Positions 20,424 through 25,782 of a DNA stretch of 64,000 nt are shown piece by piece. Made by a program: the position numbers and the translations under genes. The notes below the pieces were generated by a model, which was given only the letters and a program-made list of their open reading frames with translations, ran no database searches and was not told the DNA's origin. Source of the stretch: Halobacteriovorax sp. JY17 (GTDB taxonomy: Bacteria > Bdellovibrionota > Bacteriovoracia > Bacteriovoracales > Bacteriovoracaceae); contig NZ_NJER01000002.1 of assembly GCF_002753895.1 (NCBI RefSeq), positions 248,001 to 312,000 on the forward strand, in the 5' to 3' direction. Every line of letters starts with the position of its first letter. Position 1 is the stretch's first letter.

Positions 20424-21248
20424 ATGTCTAATACTCAGAAAAGAATTTTCTCTGCCCTTGTTTTAGCCTTTATCGTAGGAGTTTGCCTCTACTTTGGAAC
20501 GAGAACAACATTACTATTCATTCTTGTCACTGGAGTAATAAGTATTGATGAGCTATTTGTTAATTTTTTCAAAGGCTCTAGAAAAAGTGTAAATTATCTA
20601 TTATCTCATCTTGTTCTAATTTTACCGTTTATTTATTTTAATCTCATTGATGTGAGTACTCACTTCTTAGGAGTCTTTGTAAATGCGGGACTTGTTCTAA
20701 ACTTATTATTATTAGTTTATCTATTCTATACTCCTATGGAGTCAAATTTTGTTGTAAGAAAGTTAAAAAAATACTCTATTGCTTCTTCTTTATTGATTCT
20801 TCTTCCGCTTATGTCTTTGGCCTCAATTTTTCAATTCAACAAGTGGATCTCTCTTGTAGTGGTTCTTCTTCTTGTAAATTTTGGAATGGATACTGGAGCA
20901 TGGTTCTTTGGTAAGAATTTTGGAAAACACAAGCTTTGGCCAAGTGTAAGCCCAAATAAAACAATTGAAGGCGTTATTGGTGGAGCTCTTACTTCTGCAT
21001 TTGTTGGAGGGATTGCATTTCACTTTCTCTTTGGAAGAATGGAAGTAAAATTGTTTATATTCTTTGCATTCCTAGGCTTGATGTCCCAAGTTGGCGATCT
21101 CATTCAATCTAAGCTTAAGAGACAATGTGAAATTAAGGATAGTTCTGCACTTATTCCAGGTCACGGCGGAGTTTATGATAGAATAGATAGTCTAATGTTC
21201 TTAACCCCATTCTTTGCGGTTGCGATCAAGTATTTTTATTTCGGATAG
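20424..21248 (+). CDS. cdsA: Phosphatidate cytidylyltransferase (CDP-diacylglycerol synthase)
   Basis: Integral membrane enzyme (274 aa, about eight helices) that makes CDP-diacylglycerol, the precursor of all phospholipids, from CTP and phosphatidate. The signatures 'SPNKTIEGVIGGAL' and 'IPGHGGVYDRIDSLMF' are diagnostic. It lies between uppS and rseP, the common order. Its product feeds PssA, encoded further down the same cluster. Confidence 0.96.
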   Translation: MSNTQKRIFSALVLAFIVGVCLYFGTRTTLLFILVTGVISIDELFVNFFKGSRKSVNYLLSHLVLILPFIYFNLIDVSTHFLGVFVNAGLVLNLLLLVYLFYTPMESNFVVRKLKKYSIASSLLILLPLMSLASIFQFNKWISLVVVLLLVNFGMDTGAWFFGKNFGKHKLWPSVSPNKTIEGVIGGALTSAFVGGIAFHFLFGRMEVKLFIFFAFLGLMSQVGDLIQSKLKRQCEIKDSSALIPGHGGVYDRIDSLMFLTPFFAVAIKYFYFG

Positions 21249-21255
21249 GTAAGAG

Positions 21256-22824
21256 ATGATTGAAAAAGTATTGATATTTATATTATTCCTTGGGCCTTTA
21301 GTTTTCTTTCATGAGCTAGGGCACTTTCTATTTGCGAGACTTTTTGGAGTAAAAGTCCAAGTATTCTCCATAGGCTTTGGACCAAAGTTATTTAAATTTA
21401 AAAAAGGTGACACTGAGTACGCACTTTCATTAATTCCTCTTGGTGGATATGTGAAAATGTTTGGTGACGATCCATTCAATGGCGATGCTATTCCTGTTGA
21501 AGAAAGAAAGTATAGCTTTACTCATAAGAGTAAGTGGGCAAGATTTTGGATTGTCTTTGGTGGACCTCTTGCGAACTTTATTATGGCCTATGTTATTTTC
21601 TTTTCGCTCTTAATTGGTGGCGAGAAAATGCCTGAATTAAAAATGGGACTAGTTACAAAGGATTCAAAGTTTGCAAACTTCGGTATTAAGACTGGTGATA
21701 TTCTTAAAGAGGTAAATGGAGAATCTGTTTCAAATCCATCTGATGTAGTTCTAATGGACGGAGGGGTGAAGACTCTTACCGTAGAGCGCTTTGGTGAAAT
21801 GAAAACTGTAAATATAGGAATGAGTGGAGAAGAATTTTTTGAAGAGATGGTTAATTACCCACCATTTCTAAGACGTCCTGTTATGACTTCTTATAATGGA
21901 GAGGTATTTGCTCTGTCATTGAATAAAGACTCCGTAAATTGGGGAGAGTCTCTTGATGAGCTCGCAGATCATGCTGAGAACCAAAGTGTTTACTTATTTA
22001 AAATGAAAAAAGATGCGGACCTCGGTGATATAAATATCCAGGAAGAGAGACCATTTGTAAGCGAAGTAAAAATTGGTAATAAAGGAATGGAGAATTTCTT
22101 TAAAACAATGAGAGAAGCAAAGCTTTATCCAAATGATATGTTTGTAAAAAGTATTTCTATGAAATCTCCTGCTGAAAAAGCTGGGATTCTAGGTGGGAAT
22201 ATTATCTTGGGACTTAATGGAGAAGATATCTATAGCTTTGAAGTTTTAAGAGCAACACTTCAAAAGATTGAAACAAAAGAAGTTCAAGTAAAAATCTTAG
22301 CAGATAATATTGAAAAGTCTGTGAGTCTTACTCCGGATGTAAAACCTCAAGGGGAGAAGAAAGTAAAACTCATTGGAGTCTACTCAAACGGTGTATTCCA
22401 AGGAATGAGGTTTGTTGACACTCCTTCTAAAGGCTTTGTTGGGTCGTTCACGGGAGCTTTTTCAAGAACTTGGGACACTATTGTAAAAACAGTAGGCTCG
22501 TTTAAAAAACTTATTGTTGGAGAAGTTTCACTTAAGAATATTGGAGGACCTCTCGCTATTGGTAAGGTTGCTTCGGATTCTTTTCAGACGAGCCTTTCTT
22601 ACTTTTTTCAATTGATGGCCTTGATTTCAGTTAACCTTGGAGTTATAAACCTATTCCCAATTCCAGTTTTGGATGGCGGGCATATTTTATTTCTAGGACT
22701 TGAATTTTTAAATAGAGGACCCGTCTCCAGAAGAAAAATGGAAATTGCACAACAATTTGGTCTTTCAATGTTACTGATGCTGATGATTGGTGCGATCTTT
22801 AACGACGTGGTGAGATTCTTTTAA
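21256..22824 (+). CDS. rseP: Site-2 protease RseP (membrane zinc metalloprotease)
   Basis: Intramembrane zinc protease that cleaves anti-sigma factors and remnant signal peptides. The active-site HExxH is H19-E20-H23 ('FFHELGHFLFARLFG') in the first helix. The third zinc ligand motif 'PIPVLDGGHI' is near residue 472. Two periplasmic PDZ-like modules lie between them ('FGIKTGDILKEVNGE' and 'AGILGGNIILGLNGEDI'). Length (522 aa) is longer than E. coli RseP (450), with extra sequence between the PDZ domains. Ribosome site TAGGTAAGAG. Confidence 0.95.
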   Translation: MIEKVLIFILFLGPLVFFHELGHFLFARLFGVKVQVFSIGFGPKLFKFKKGDTEYALSLIPLGGYVKMFGDDPFNGDAIPVEERKYSFTHKSKWARFWIVFGGPLANFIMAYVIFFSLLIGGEKMPELKMGLVTKDSKFANFGIKTGDILKEVNGESVSNPSDVVLMDGGVKTLTVERFGEMKTVNIGMSGEEFFEEMVNYPPFLRRPVMTSYNGEVFALSLNKDSVNWGESLDELADHAENQSVYLFKMKKDADLGDINIQEERPFVSEVKIGNKGMENFFKTMREAKLYPNDMFVKSISMKSPAEKAGILGGNIILGLNGEDIYSFEVLRATLQKIETKEVQVKILADNIEKSVSLTPDVKPQGEKKVKLIGVYSNGVFQGMRFVDTPSKGFVGSFTGAFSRTWDTIVKTVGSFKKLIVGEVSLKNIGGPLAIGKVASDSFQTSLSYFFQLMALISVNLGVINLFPIPVLDGGHILFLGLEFLNRGPVSRRKMEIAQQFGLSMLLMLMIGAIFNDVVRFF

Positions 22825-23438
22825 TGGCCTACCTCTTTATCGATACCTCTGATCATTTAGTGCTAGGTCTTTTAGACGAAGAGTATAATTGGTTAGAGTT
22901 TATCGAAACGGATGACAAGAAGAGCTCAGCCTCTATCCATTCTCATATTTACAATCTCTTAGAGCTTAGAGGATTGAAAGTAAAAGAGATCAAGGGACTT
23001 TTTCAAGTTGCTGGACCTGGCTCATATACAGGAATGAGAATATCTGAAGGGATTGCCCAAGTTCTTGAGTGGCAGAATATCCCGATATACTCTTTCTATC
23101 ATTTTGCTGTTCCTTATATTTTAGGTGTTAATAATGGCGCTTGGGTTTCTAAGGCCTTTAAGAATGAAGTATTTCTCTATGAGTGGCGCGGTAGTGTAGT
23201 AAAAAAATCTCTACATGCTGAGAGCGAATTAGTCTCTTTGCAAAATAGTTTAAGGCATGAGCTCGGTGAGTTTTGGACTCACTTTGATGGAAACTTTGAG
23301 GGGGTTAAACTTTCGAGCGCAAAGCTTATGAAAGATAATCTAAAAGAGCTATTAACTCATGTCGCAGACAGTCAGATGAGAGAAAAGCCCTTTTATTACA
23401 GATCCTTAGAAAATGAGTTCCGTGTAAGCAATAAATGA
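22824..23438 (+). CDS. tsaB: tRNA N6-threonylcarbamoyladenosine biosynthesis protein TsaB-like
   Basis: Actin-like-fold partner (204 aa) of TsaD in making t6A37 on ANN-decoding tRNAs. The hallmark 'GPGSYTGMRISEGIAQVL' is intact, and the N terminus 'FIDTSDHLVLGLLDE' fits the family. The rest is divergent, as usual for TsaB. Its ATG overlaps the rseP stop by one base (TAATG), indicating coupled translation. Confidence 0.85.
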   Translation: MAYLFIDTSDHLVLGLLDEEYNWLEFIETDDKKSSASIHSHIYNLLELRGLKVKEIKGLFQVAGPGSYTGMRISEGIAQVLEWQNIPIYSFYHFAVPYILGVNNGAWVSKAFKNEVFLYEWRGSVVKKSLHAESELVSLQNSLRHELGEFWTHFDGNFEGVKLSSAKLMKDNLKELLTHVADSQMREKPFYYRSLENEFRVSNK

Positions 23439-23469: not shown

Positions 23470-24093
23470 ATGGGATTAACTTACTTACCTCGGTGGATAT
23501 ATTTCTGTATTTCATTTCTAGCATTCTTGTTAATGCTATCGTTTGGTTTTTTGGGATTCCTATTAACCGTCGCGGCCTTTGCTTTTCTCTTTGGAATTTT
23601 TAGAAAACAAAAACAAGATTTTAGAGATCATTCTAACGATAATGTTATTGTCTCTCCTGTTAATGGAAGAGTTTATAAAATTTATAAAAATGTAGATCAT
23701 GACTTCTTTGGAAAAGATATGACTTGTGTTCTTATTCAAGTTCCCTTCTGGAAAGAGTTTGGATTGTTTTTCCCTGCGAAGGCCGAAATTCATGAGGTTC
23801 AATCTAGTAGAAAAGATTGTCTTGATCACCTTGTAAAGTTTAGACTATCAAGTGGAATAGATATAGGTCTTGCTGTTGGACAAAATATTCTTAGGCTTGC
23901 GCCACAGATTGTAGTGCTGCCTGGGGACCGTGGGAAACAGAAAGTTAATTTTGGATTTCTTCCAATGGGTGGTGAGGTGAAAGTATACATCCCATCTGTG
24001 TTGGAAGTTTTAATTAATGAAAAAGATGAAGTAGTTGCTGGCGAAGGAATTCTTGCTGGGATACCTACAGATGTTGAGGAAAAAATAATATGA
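23470..24093 (+). CDS. Phosphatidylserine decarboxylase-like protein lacking the catalytic triad
   Basis: The whole chain follows the short (about 210 aa) phosphatidylserine/archaetidylserine decarboxylase family: two N-terminal membrane helices (8-45), then 'VIVSPVNGRVYKI', a central sheet, and 'MGGEVKVYIPSVLEVLI' near the end. Active members cleave themselves at a Gly-Ser to form pyruvoyl, using an Asp-His-Ser triad. Here the Asp of S-P-A-D-G is N65, the 'VHVNR' His region (about 90-105) contains no His, and the Gly-Ser is G167-G168. It should therefore be unable to self-process or decarboxylate. Its frame is intact and it overlaps pssA, so it is probably functional in another way. Homology is my reading; loss of the residues is seen directly. 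Confidence 0.75.
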   Translation: MGLTYLPRWIYFCISFLAFLLMLSFGFLGFLLTVAAFAFLFGIFRKQKQDFRDHSNDNVIVSPVNGRVYKIYKNVDHDFFGKDMTCVLIQVPFWKEFGLFFPAKAEIHEVQSSRKDCLDHLVKFRLSSGIDIGLAVGQNILRLAPQIVVLPGDRGKQKVNFGFLPMGGEVKVYIPSVLEVLINEKDEVVAGEGILAGIPTDVEEKII

Positions 24094-24848
24094 TTGATCA
24101 ACCTAAGAGACTTGCTTTCTTTTTACCAAACACTTTTACAGCGTTGAATATGGCCTGTGGTTTTGCCTCAGTAATAATGTCGTGGAATGGACAATTCTAT
24201 AATGCAAGTATGATTCTTCTTTTAGGAGCAATCTTTGATTCCGTTGATGGAAGAGTTGCTAGAATGACTGGAACCCAATCTCAGTTTGGAGAGCAATTTG
24301 ATTCAATCAGTGATGTTGTATCATTTGGTATAGCTCCTGCATTTCTTGTTTATAACTGCTTTTTTAAAGATCTTGGACGACTTGGAATGGTCGTATCATT
24401 TATTTATCTTCTTTGTGGAGCCTTGAGACTTGCTAGGTTTAATGCAAATATTGATAAAGTAAGTAGTGATTATTTTCAAGGCCTTCCTATTCCGACTGCA
24501 GCTTTAGGACTTGTGGGTTATGTTCTACTAGCAATTGAGTTTGAACTTATTAAAACTTTAACCCCTTTTACAATTTTCTATGTTGTCCTTTACTCTTTGC
24601 TGATGATTTCAAATGTTCCATTTTATTCATTTAAAAATGCAGCATGGGTAAAAACTCATAAGAAGAGAGTATTAGCTTTAATATTTCTTTTGCTAGCATT
24701 GATATTTACATATGAACAATTAATGATTGGTGTAATCACTGGAGCGTATGTTCTTGGTGGATTGATTTACTTTATTACTCATAAAGGTGCACTTGAAGAT
24801 GTTTTTTCATGGAAGAGCGAAAATGATGAAATTAACGAAGGTAATTAA
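24090..24848 (+). CDS. pssA: CDP-diacylglycerol-serine O-phosphatidyltransferase
   Basis: Membrane CDP-alcohol phosphatidyltransferase (252 aa) making phosphatidylserine from CDP-diacylglycerol and serine. The diagnostic DGxxAR-(8)-G-(3)-D-(3)-D motif is complete, running from 'DGRVAR' to 'FDSISD'. The N-terminal 'FLPNTFTALNMACGFASVI' is typical of the Bacillus-type PssA. It overlaps the psd-like gene by four bases (ATGA). CdsA, upstream, makes its substrate. Confidence 0.93.
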   Translation: MIDQPKRLAFFLPNTFTALNMACGFASVIMSWNGQFYNASMILLLGAIFDSVDGRVARMTGTQSQFGEQFDSISDVVSFGIAPAFLVYNCFFKDLGRLGMVVSFIYLLCGALRLARFNANIDKVSSDYFQGLPIPTAALGLVGYVLLAIEFELIKTLTPFTIFYVVLYSLLMISNVPFYSFKNAAWVKTHKKRVLALIFLLLALIFTYEQLMIGVITGAYVLGGLIYFITHKGALEDVFSWKSENDEINEGN

Positions 24849-25782
24849 GTTATTTACTTTAACTCTAATTTTAGCAAATTCTTATGCTGAAGACTTCGGG
24901 CAAACGGTGCCTGGAAGTATTCCAAATGCAATGGAAGACGTTAAAGTTGATGGTGAAAGTGTCTATATTCCAGATGGAAATGAAAGACCATTAGATAAGG
25001 TTGAGAAGAAGAAAACGTCGGCACTTGTGCCGGGTGAAGAAGATTATGGAACTGAGGTCTCAGGCAAAGGTTCTCCTTCGCAGTTTAACTCAGGCGCGCC
25101 ATTTAGTGGACTTGATTCTGACAGCTATATTACCTATACGAATAAAGATATTTTAAAAGGACTTGCAAAGAAGAGTAAGTCGTCTTTTTCATTCGAATTT
25201 TTTCAAAATAATTTTGATTACACTGATACTAGAGGAGTATATTCAAAAACTTTTGATTCCGATTCAGGAGCAAAAGGTGGATCACTTCATATTTCAATGG
25301 ATCGCTATTTATATAAAGGCTTTCTAAATTTTGGTTATGGTGGTGGACTTGGAGTTGGTTATAGTACAGGAAAAGGGATTTTTGCAGACGATAATACAGT
25401 TAGTAAAACTCGATTTAATCTCTACTCGTTGCCAATTGATTTAAGACTACTCATTGAATTGCCTATAGGAGAAGTTGTTAAGCTATCATTTGCTGGAGGA
25501 CCAAGTGTTATGGGCCTCATTCAAAATAGAAGTGATAGAGATGACGGTGATAAAGATAAAGAGAGACGGCAAGTAGGCTATGGGTATTCTGCAGAAGGAA
25601 AACTTAAGTTAAATCTAGGGCACCTTTTTACGGATACAGGTTTTGAATACTATAGAACTCATGAGGTTAGTTTCATGTCTATTGATTTGGCCATCCGTAC
25701 ACAAAATTATTCTGGATTTGCAGATGAAGTTGAAATTTCGGGAATGTCATACGGCTTAGGTTTCACTTTTGAATTTCTATAA
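24826..25782 (+). CDS. Predicted outer-membrane beta-barrel protein, function unknown
   Basis: I do not recognise this protein. A signal peptide ('MKLTKVIKLFTLTLILANSYA') starts at 24826 (or the Met at 24823), overlapping pssA by 23-26 bases. A low-complexity charged linker of about 80 residues is followed by alternating aromatic/glycine strands such as 'FLNFGYGGGLGVGYSTGKG' and 'LKLNLGHLFTDTGFEYYRT'. The chain ends in '...GFTFEFL', a barrel-like C-terminal strand. It probably forms an 8-10-stranded outer-membrane barrel. The open frame extends upstream to 24787, but that part overlaps pssA. Confidence 0.75.
   Translation: MKLTKVIKLFTLTLILANSYAEDFGQTVPGSIPNAMEDVKVDGESVYIPDGNERPLDKVEKKKTSALVPGEEDYGTEVSGKGSPSQFNSGAPFSGLDSDSYITYTNKDILKGLAKKSKSSFSFEFFQNNFDYTDTRGVYSKTFDSDSGAKGGSLHISMDRYLYKGFLNFGYGGGLGVGYSTGKGIFADDNTVSKTRFNLYSLPIDLRLLIELPIGEVVKLSFAGGPSVMGLIQNRSDRDDGDKDKERRQVGYGYSAEGKLKLNLGHLFTDTGFEYYRTHEVSFMSIDLAIRTQNYSGFADEVEISGMSYGLGFTFEFL

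Follow-up and report, generated by a model that had tools for sequence, protein, structure and literature searches.

A phosphatidylserine decarboxylase homologue lacking its catalytic residues is retained beside pssA in a family of predatory bacteria

Results

psdX overlaps the phosphatidylserine synthase gene pssA

The window analysed here is a 64,000-nucleotide stretch of the Halobacteriovorax sp. JY17 genome (RefSeq GCF_002753895.1, contig NZ_NJER01000002.1; C2:248001-312000 in our numbering), and all of its genes described below lie on the forward (+) strand. An intact open reading frame at positions 23470-24093, which we call psdX, encodes a 207-residue, catalytically dead homologue of the small-type phosphatidylserine decarboxylases (Psd), assigned from the reading frame, HMM searches and hhalign. 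As an earlier preliminary description of this DNA had stated, the frame runs into pssA: its TGA stop codon shares four nucleotides with the pssA ATG (24090), forming an ATGA overlap. The pssA gene (24090-24848) encodes CDP-diacylglycerol-serine O-phosphatidyltransferase (TIGR00473, 141.9 bits versus a cut-off of 107). Upstream lies a divergent tsaB (22824-23438), a conserved neighbour named from a weak HMM match and synteny; its product scores 52.6 bits against TIGR03725, below the curated cut-off of 69.3, and the orthologue from family f20 scores 126.7. The second conserved upstream neighbour, rseP (21256-22824), was recognized by synteny and by the RseP identity of its orthologue at locus L138, and is preceded by a cdsA-like gene (20424-21248), named from sequence and gene order, that probably serves CDP-diacylglycerol synthesis, the step before PssA. 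On the other side, a predicted outer-membrane beta-barrel gene (24820-25782; weak OMP_b-brl match) begins inside the 3' end of pssA; it is kept in many relatives, and truA occupies its place in others.

The relationship of PsdX to Psd, which the preliminary description had proposed, was borne out by profile searches. PsdX scores 20.7 bits against Pfam PF02666, slightly below the cut-off of 22, and its relative at L007 clears this cut-off with 31.1 bits. Ten NCBIfam small-Psd models match PsdX (best, NF003678, E = 2.7e-12), and hhalign pairs the intact small Psd of L138 with a profile of 30 PsdX relatives at E = 3e-12. A sequence search of the PDB with PsdX matched no solved structure. Judged from these profile matches, the homology is real but remote.

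An AlphaFold2 model of PsdX (pLDDT 87.9, pTM 0.80) features two helices (residues 8-25 and 27-43) followed by a beta domain. Together with hydropathy, the model predicts that the helices form a membrane hairpin (residues 8-43; 23491-23598), and 78 of 79 PsdX relatives carry a highly hydrophobic stretch of 19 residues close to the N-terminus. PsdX is thus predicted to be membrane-anchored at its N-terminus. The top PDB fold match of the model is IIA-glucose (1gpr; E = 4.6e-5, TM 0.59 by target length), with M23 peptidases and the Psd-family protein PsiD (TM up to 0.50, weak E-value) as further matches.

The catalytic residues are missing in PsdX and its relatives

Alignment by hhalign with the intact L138 Psd places N65 of PsdX (23662-23664) at the position of the family Asp (SPVNG here, SPADG in intact small Psd), F97 (23758-23760) at the catalytic His (EFGLFFP here, VHVNRxP in intact small Psd) and G168 at the cleavage Ser, such that G167-G168 (23968-23973) replaces the self-cleavage Gly-Ser. 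The residue numbers given in the preliminary description were therefore exact, and its statement that the His region contains no His holds, with F97 standing there. That description had also envisaged a Gly-Ser or Ser-Thr pair elsewhere in the chain; the 207-residue protein contains no Gly-Ser, Gly-Thr or Gly-Cys pair anywhere.

Self-cleavage of E. coli PSD is driven by D90/D142-H144-S254; the S254A variant remains uncleaved, maturation and activity survive mutation of D90 alone, and Y137, H144 and S166 make contact with the headgroup of PS (PMC7952604). Because D90 single mutants are active, it is the losses of His and Ser in PsdX that are decisive and not the loss of Asp alone. By analogy with the E. 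coli enzyme, PsdX, with Ser replaced by Gly and His lost as well, should be unable to form the pyruvoyl group and its PS binding should be altered; binding of the PS headgroup by PsdX is doubtful since the PS-contacting His of E. coli PSD is gone.

To this pattern the relatives conform, as the preliminary description had suggested they might: none of 79 distinct family sequences combines all three catalytic residues. The Asp column is occupied by Asn (43 sequences), Ser (13), His (8) and others, and the His column is widely scattered (Met, Phe, Tyr, Lys and more), with His in five sequences, none of which has the Ser. At the cleavage-Ser column, by contrast, Gly is found in 76 sequences, Ala in one and Ser in two (L098 and L024), neither Ser being preceded by Gly or accompanied by His. 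The L024 sequence retains Asp and Ser (SPIDG, GFNSK) without His or the preceding Gly, a state that may be either early-branching or a reversion. When similar sequences were down-weighted, conservation reached 94% for G168 and 100% for D153. Hence, substitutions accumulate freely at the Asp and His sites, whereas Gly is held fixed at the site of cleavage. D153 belongs to PGDRG (residues 151-155; 23920-23934), a new motif of the pseudoenzyme subfamily in which G152 and D153 are invariant. Conservation that intact Psd does not share also extends to G98, E106, P145, G155 and P165 of PsdX.

psdX is widespread in the family and under purifying selection

A profile of 23 relatives detected psdX in 90 of 97 sampled genomes of the GTDB family to which the window belongs (Bacteriovoracaceae/Halobacteriovoraceae, also including Bacteriovorax and Halobacteriovorax records and a few loosely labelled MAGs). 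The nearest named isolate carrying it is Halobacteriovorax marinus 36_234_T64 (61% identity). The order rseP-tsaB-psdX-pssA was present at every psdX locus read, and the psdX-pssA spacing is 20 nt or less in 74 of 80 loci. Diverged psdX copies occupy the same slot at L096 and L098, where they were missed by the single-sequence search and are absent from the profile-search list, and a very diverged copy (orf193) is found there at L099 (E = 1e-6 with a broad profile). In some genomes without a psdX match (L092, L094, L095 and L097), tsaB adjoins pssA. In a PssA tree the family forms one clade, within which at least four changes are needed to account for the genomes without psdX. At least four losses of psdX in lineages that kept pssA mean that PssA has no strict need of it.

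Identity of PsdX across genera is about 23-38%. Within the genus, dN/dS of psdX is 0.09-0.25 where estimable, compared with 0.06-0.16 for tsaB and 0.02-0.06 for pssA, all of these values being rough because dS is near saturation. With this caution about dS, the dN/dS values and residue conservation led us to reject the reading of psdX as a pseudogene.

An intact Psd of another subfamily is encoded elsewhere in the genome

The preliminary description had raised the question of how phosphatidylethanolamine (PE) is made and whether a second psd exists. The window genome contains one strong PF02666 match (G000:C2:345339-345884, 157 bits), located 33 kb past the end of the window and ~74 kb from psdX. 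It belongs to an intact protein of 306 residues with YHRYHFP and FGGST motifs that is of the large, PRK00723 type (NF001941, 295 bits). Thus, pssA and an intact psd are both present, with the cdsA-like gene upstream, which rules out a missing PE pathway; as judged from its motifs, the large Psd can make PE. Its assignment to a subfamily other than that of PsdX rests on HMM and hhalign scores, the hhalign probability against the psdX profile being 4.9%.

A motif scan (YHR[YF]H and FGGST) revealed an intact Psd in 21 of 24 family loci, the window genome included. Intact Psd and psdX occur together in nearly all family genomes, and the large Psd is also retained where psdX is missing. Two of the genomes lacking psdX (G022 and G028) have extra Psd-like proteins of 511-541 residues, encoded at L172:953-2488 (-) and L173:65-1690 (+), in which the VDYHxxHFP and FGGS[TS] motifs are intact and the N-terminus is hydrophobic, resembling an export signal. 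Another genome (G005) encodes a 547-residue Psd-like protein (L174:25-1668, +) whose last part retains APSDVHGYVVP and LNGSTI, probably another divergent large Psd relative.

psdX derives from a small Psd in the same slot

Outside the family but within the phylum, nine loci encode an intact small Psd with Asp, His and Ser immediately upstream of pssA. In family f20 (L138), the order rseP-tsaB-psd-pssA is identical to that of the window; HMM matches identified TsaB and RseP there. Fourteen outgroup genomes were checked, and each has one Psd except G195, which has two. In a tree with the intact small Psds, the PsdX sequences form a single clade (support 99/99). This single clade, along with intact small Psds in the same slot elsewhere, argues that the ancestral Psd died in place, once. 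On the simplest history, the large Psd was already present in the family ancestor before catalysis was lost.

Discussion

Our results indicate that PsdX is almost certainly a pseudoenzyme. That it is a conserved one, as the preliminary description had it, stands: the PsdX sequences are monophyletic, present in most family genomes and under selection, with a cleavage site that is nearly always Gly. The lipid-binding or PssA-regulating role suggested at the same time is kept here as a conjecture, because we found no PssA-specific signal of co-evolution: the partial distance correlation given RseP is 0.24 for psdX-PssA and likewise 0.24 for tsaB-PssA. Moreover, the linkage to pssA was inherited from an ancestral psd-pssA operon and is therefore weak evidence for a role at PssA.

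We propose that the small Psd of this operon was converted in place into a pseudoenzyme after the presence of the second, large Psd in the family ancestor had made it redundant. The loss of His and the change of Ser to Gly would have ended autocleavage and pyruvoyl formation, and the single-chain, membrane-anchored barrel would then have been retained for a non-catalytic job at the membrane, where it would scaffold or regulate the synthesis of aminophospholipids. PsdX might bind PssA or its product PS and thereby adjust how much is made or how it is passed to the working Psd. That PsdX takes some part in PS/PE synthesis is probable. A scaffold or regulator at the membrane is the likeliest form of such a part, since PsdX is made beside PssA, at close spacing between the genes, keeps both the membrane hairpin and a Psd-like domain, and is under selection, but we advance only tentatively the view that the PS/PE pathway of this predatory family has in PsdX a fixed subunit that regulates or scaffolds and does not catalyse. 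The same reserve applies to the complete scenario, in-place conversion followed by scaffolding or regulation, even though it explains the data best, and the idea that PssA is the direct partner of PsdX is put forward with slightly greater hesitation.

Several other explanations were weighed against this scenario. That PsdX still decarboxylates by means of another residue is highly improbable. Many relatives read FGGT at the cleavage site, and cleavage might in principle shift by one residue to the Gly-Thr bond, but the window sequence is MGGE there and other relatives have Lys, Ile, Gln or Phe; such cryptic cleavage is thus ruled out for the window protein and the Thr is not conserved. The catalytic His is absent as well, and the uncleaved S254A variant of E. 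coli PSD speaks against such rescue (PMC7952604). We also regard it as rather improbable that psdX is the decaying relic of a redundant gene, kept merely for its position inside an essential operon. The repeated losses, the fast divergence across genera and very diverged copies such as orf193 would fit such decay, yet the frame is open in nearly all of the ~90 genomes, the dN/dS values are low and the monophyletic PsdX group has conserved residues of its own.

Two further possibilities, each unlikely though less so than a relic, concern the retained function. In what we consider the main rival, PsdX would act as a prozyme: by binding to the large, intact Psd, it would activate or modulate that enzyme. 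This logic is known from another pyruvoyl enzyme, as a dead paralogue of S-adenosylmethionine decarboxylase (AdoMetDC) activates the active enzyme in trypanosomes (PMC5201418); E. coli PSD acts as a dimer of alpha-beta units (PMC7952604), and an intact Psd accompanies psdX almost throughout the family. On the other hand, the large Psd is encoded far from psdX, is kept where psdX is missing and belongs to a different subfamily, which makes prozyme-like action less direct. Alternatively, PsdX could have taken on a new function at the membrane that has nothing to do with PS, for example as a carrier of lipids or cofactors, as a protein-binding platform or as an enzyme that employs D153 and E106 and needs no pyruvoyl group. 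The motifs that intact Psd lacks (G98, E106, P145, PGDRG and P165) and the non-Psd barrel of IIA-glucose as top fold match would be consistent with this, but the fold search also returned PsiD, sequence profiles match Psd only, and the retention of psdX beside pssA in ~90 genomes suggests a lipid-related role. We continue to favour, tentatively, a scaffold or regulator of PS/PE synthesis.

We found no earlier report of a Psd-family pseudoenzyme in the open-access papers searched. As a lineage-fixed pseudoenzyme of a pyruvoyl decarboxylase, PsdX offers a clean natural case in which self-processing was lost in place, presumably after another enzyme took over the job, and the gene was nonetheless long kept next to the one that serves the step before. 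If PsdX controls PssA or the working Psd, PE synthesis would be subject to protein-level control in bacteria that remodel membranes during predation. For annotation, the finding is a warning that in this Bacteriovoracales family the psd-like neighbour of pssA should not be taken for the decarboxylase.

Among known systems, PsdX is closest to the small-type phosphatidylserine/archaetidylserine decarboxylases (NCBIfam PRK05305 models including NF003678, TIGR00164; PF02666), to which it is homologous across the domain. It resembles them in length, N-terminal membrane anchor, slot immediately before pssA and SPxxG, NRxP-type proline, FG hairpin and YLP motifs; it differs in having lost the Asp, His and cleavage Ser, the last to a near-invariant Gly, in its new PGDRG and P165 motifs, and in scoring far under the cut-offs of these models. 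The large Psd of the same genome shares superfamily and Pfam family with PsdX but is intact (YHRYH, FGGST), located elsewhere and of a different subfamily. The barrels of PTS IIA-glucose and M23 peptidases are the best PDB fold matches of the PsdX model, but we found no sequence relation to them, and they have no known link to lipid synthesis here. Like PsdX, the AdoMetDC prozyme of trypanosomatids is related to a pyruvoyl enzyme but is itself dead and incapable of self-cleavage, and selection maintains it beside an active copy. The prozyme, however, is closely paralogous to the active enzyme that it partners and works by heterodimer formation, whereas the active Psd belongs to a subfamily other than that of PsdX.
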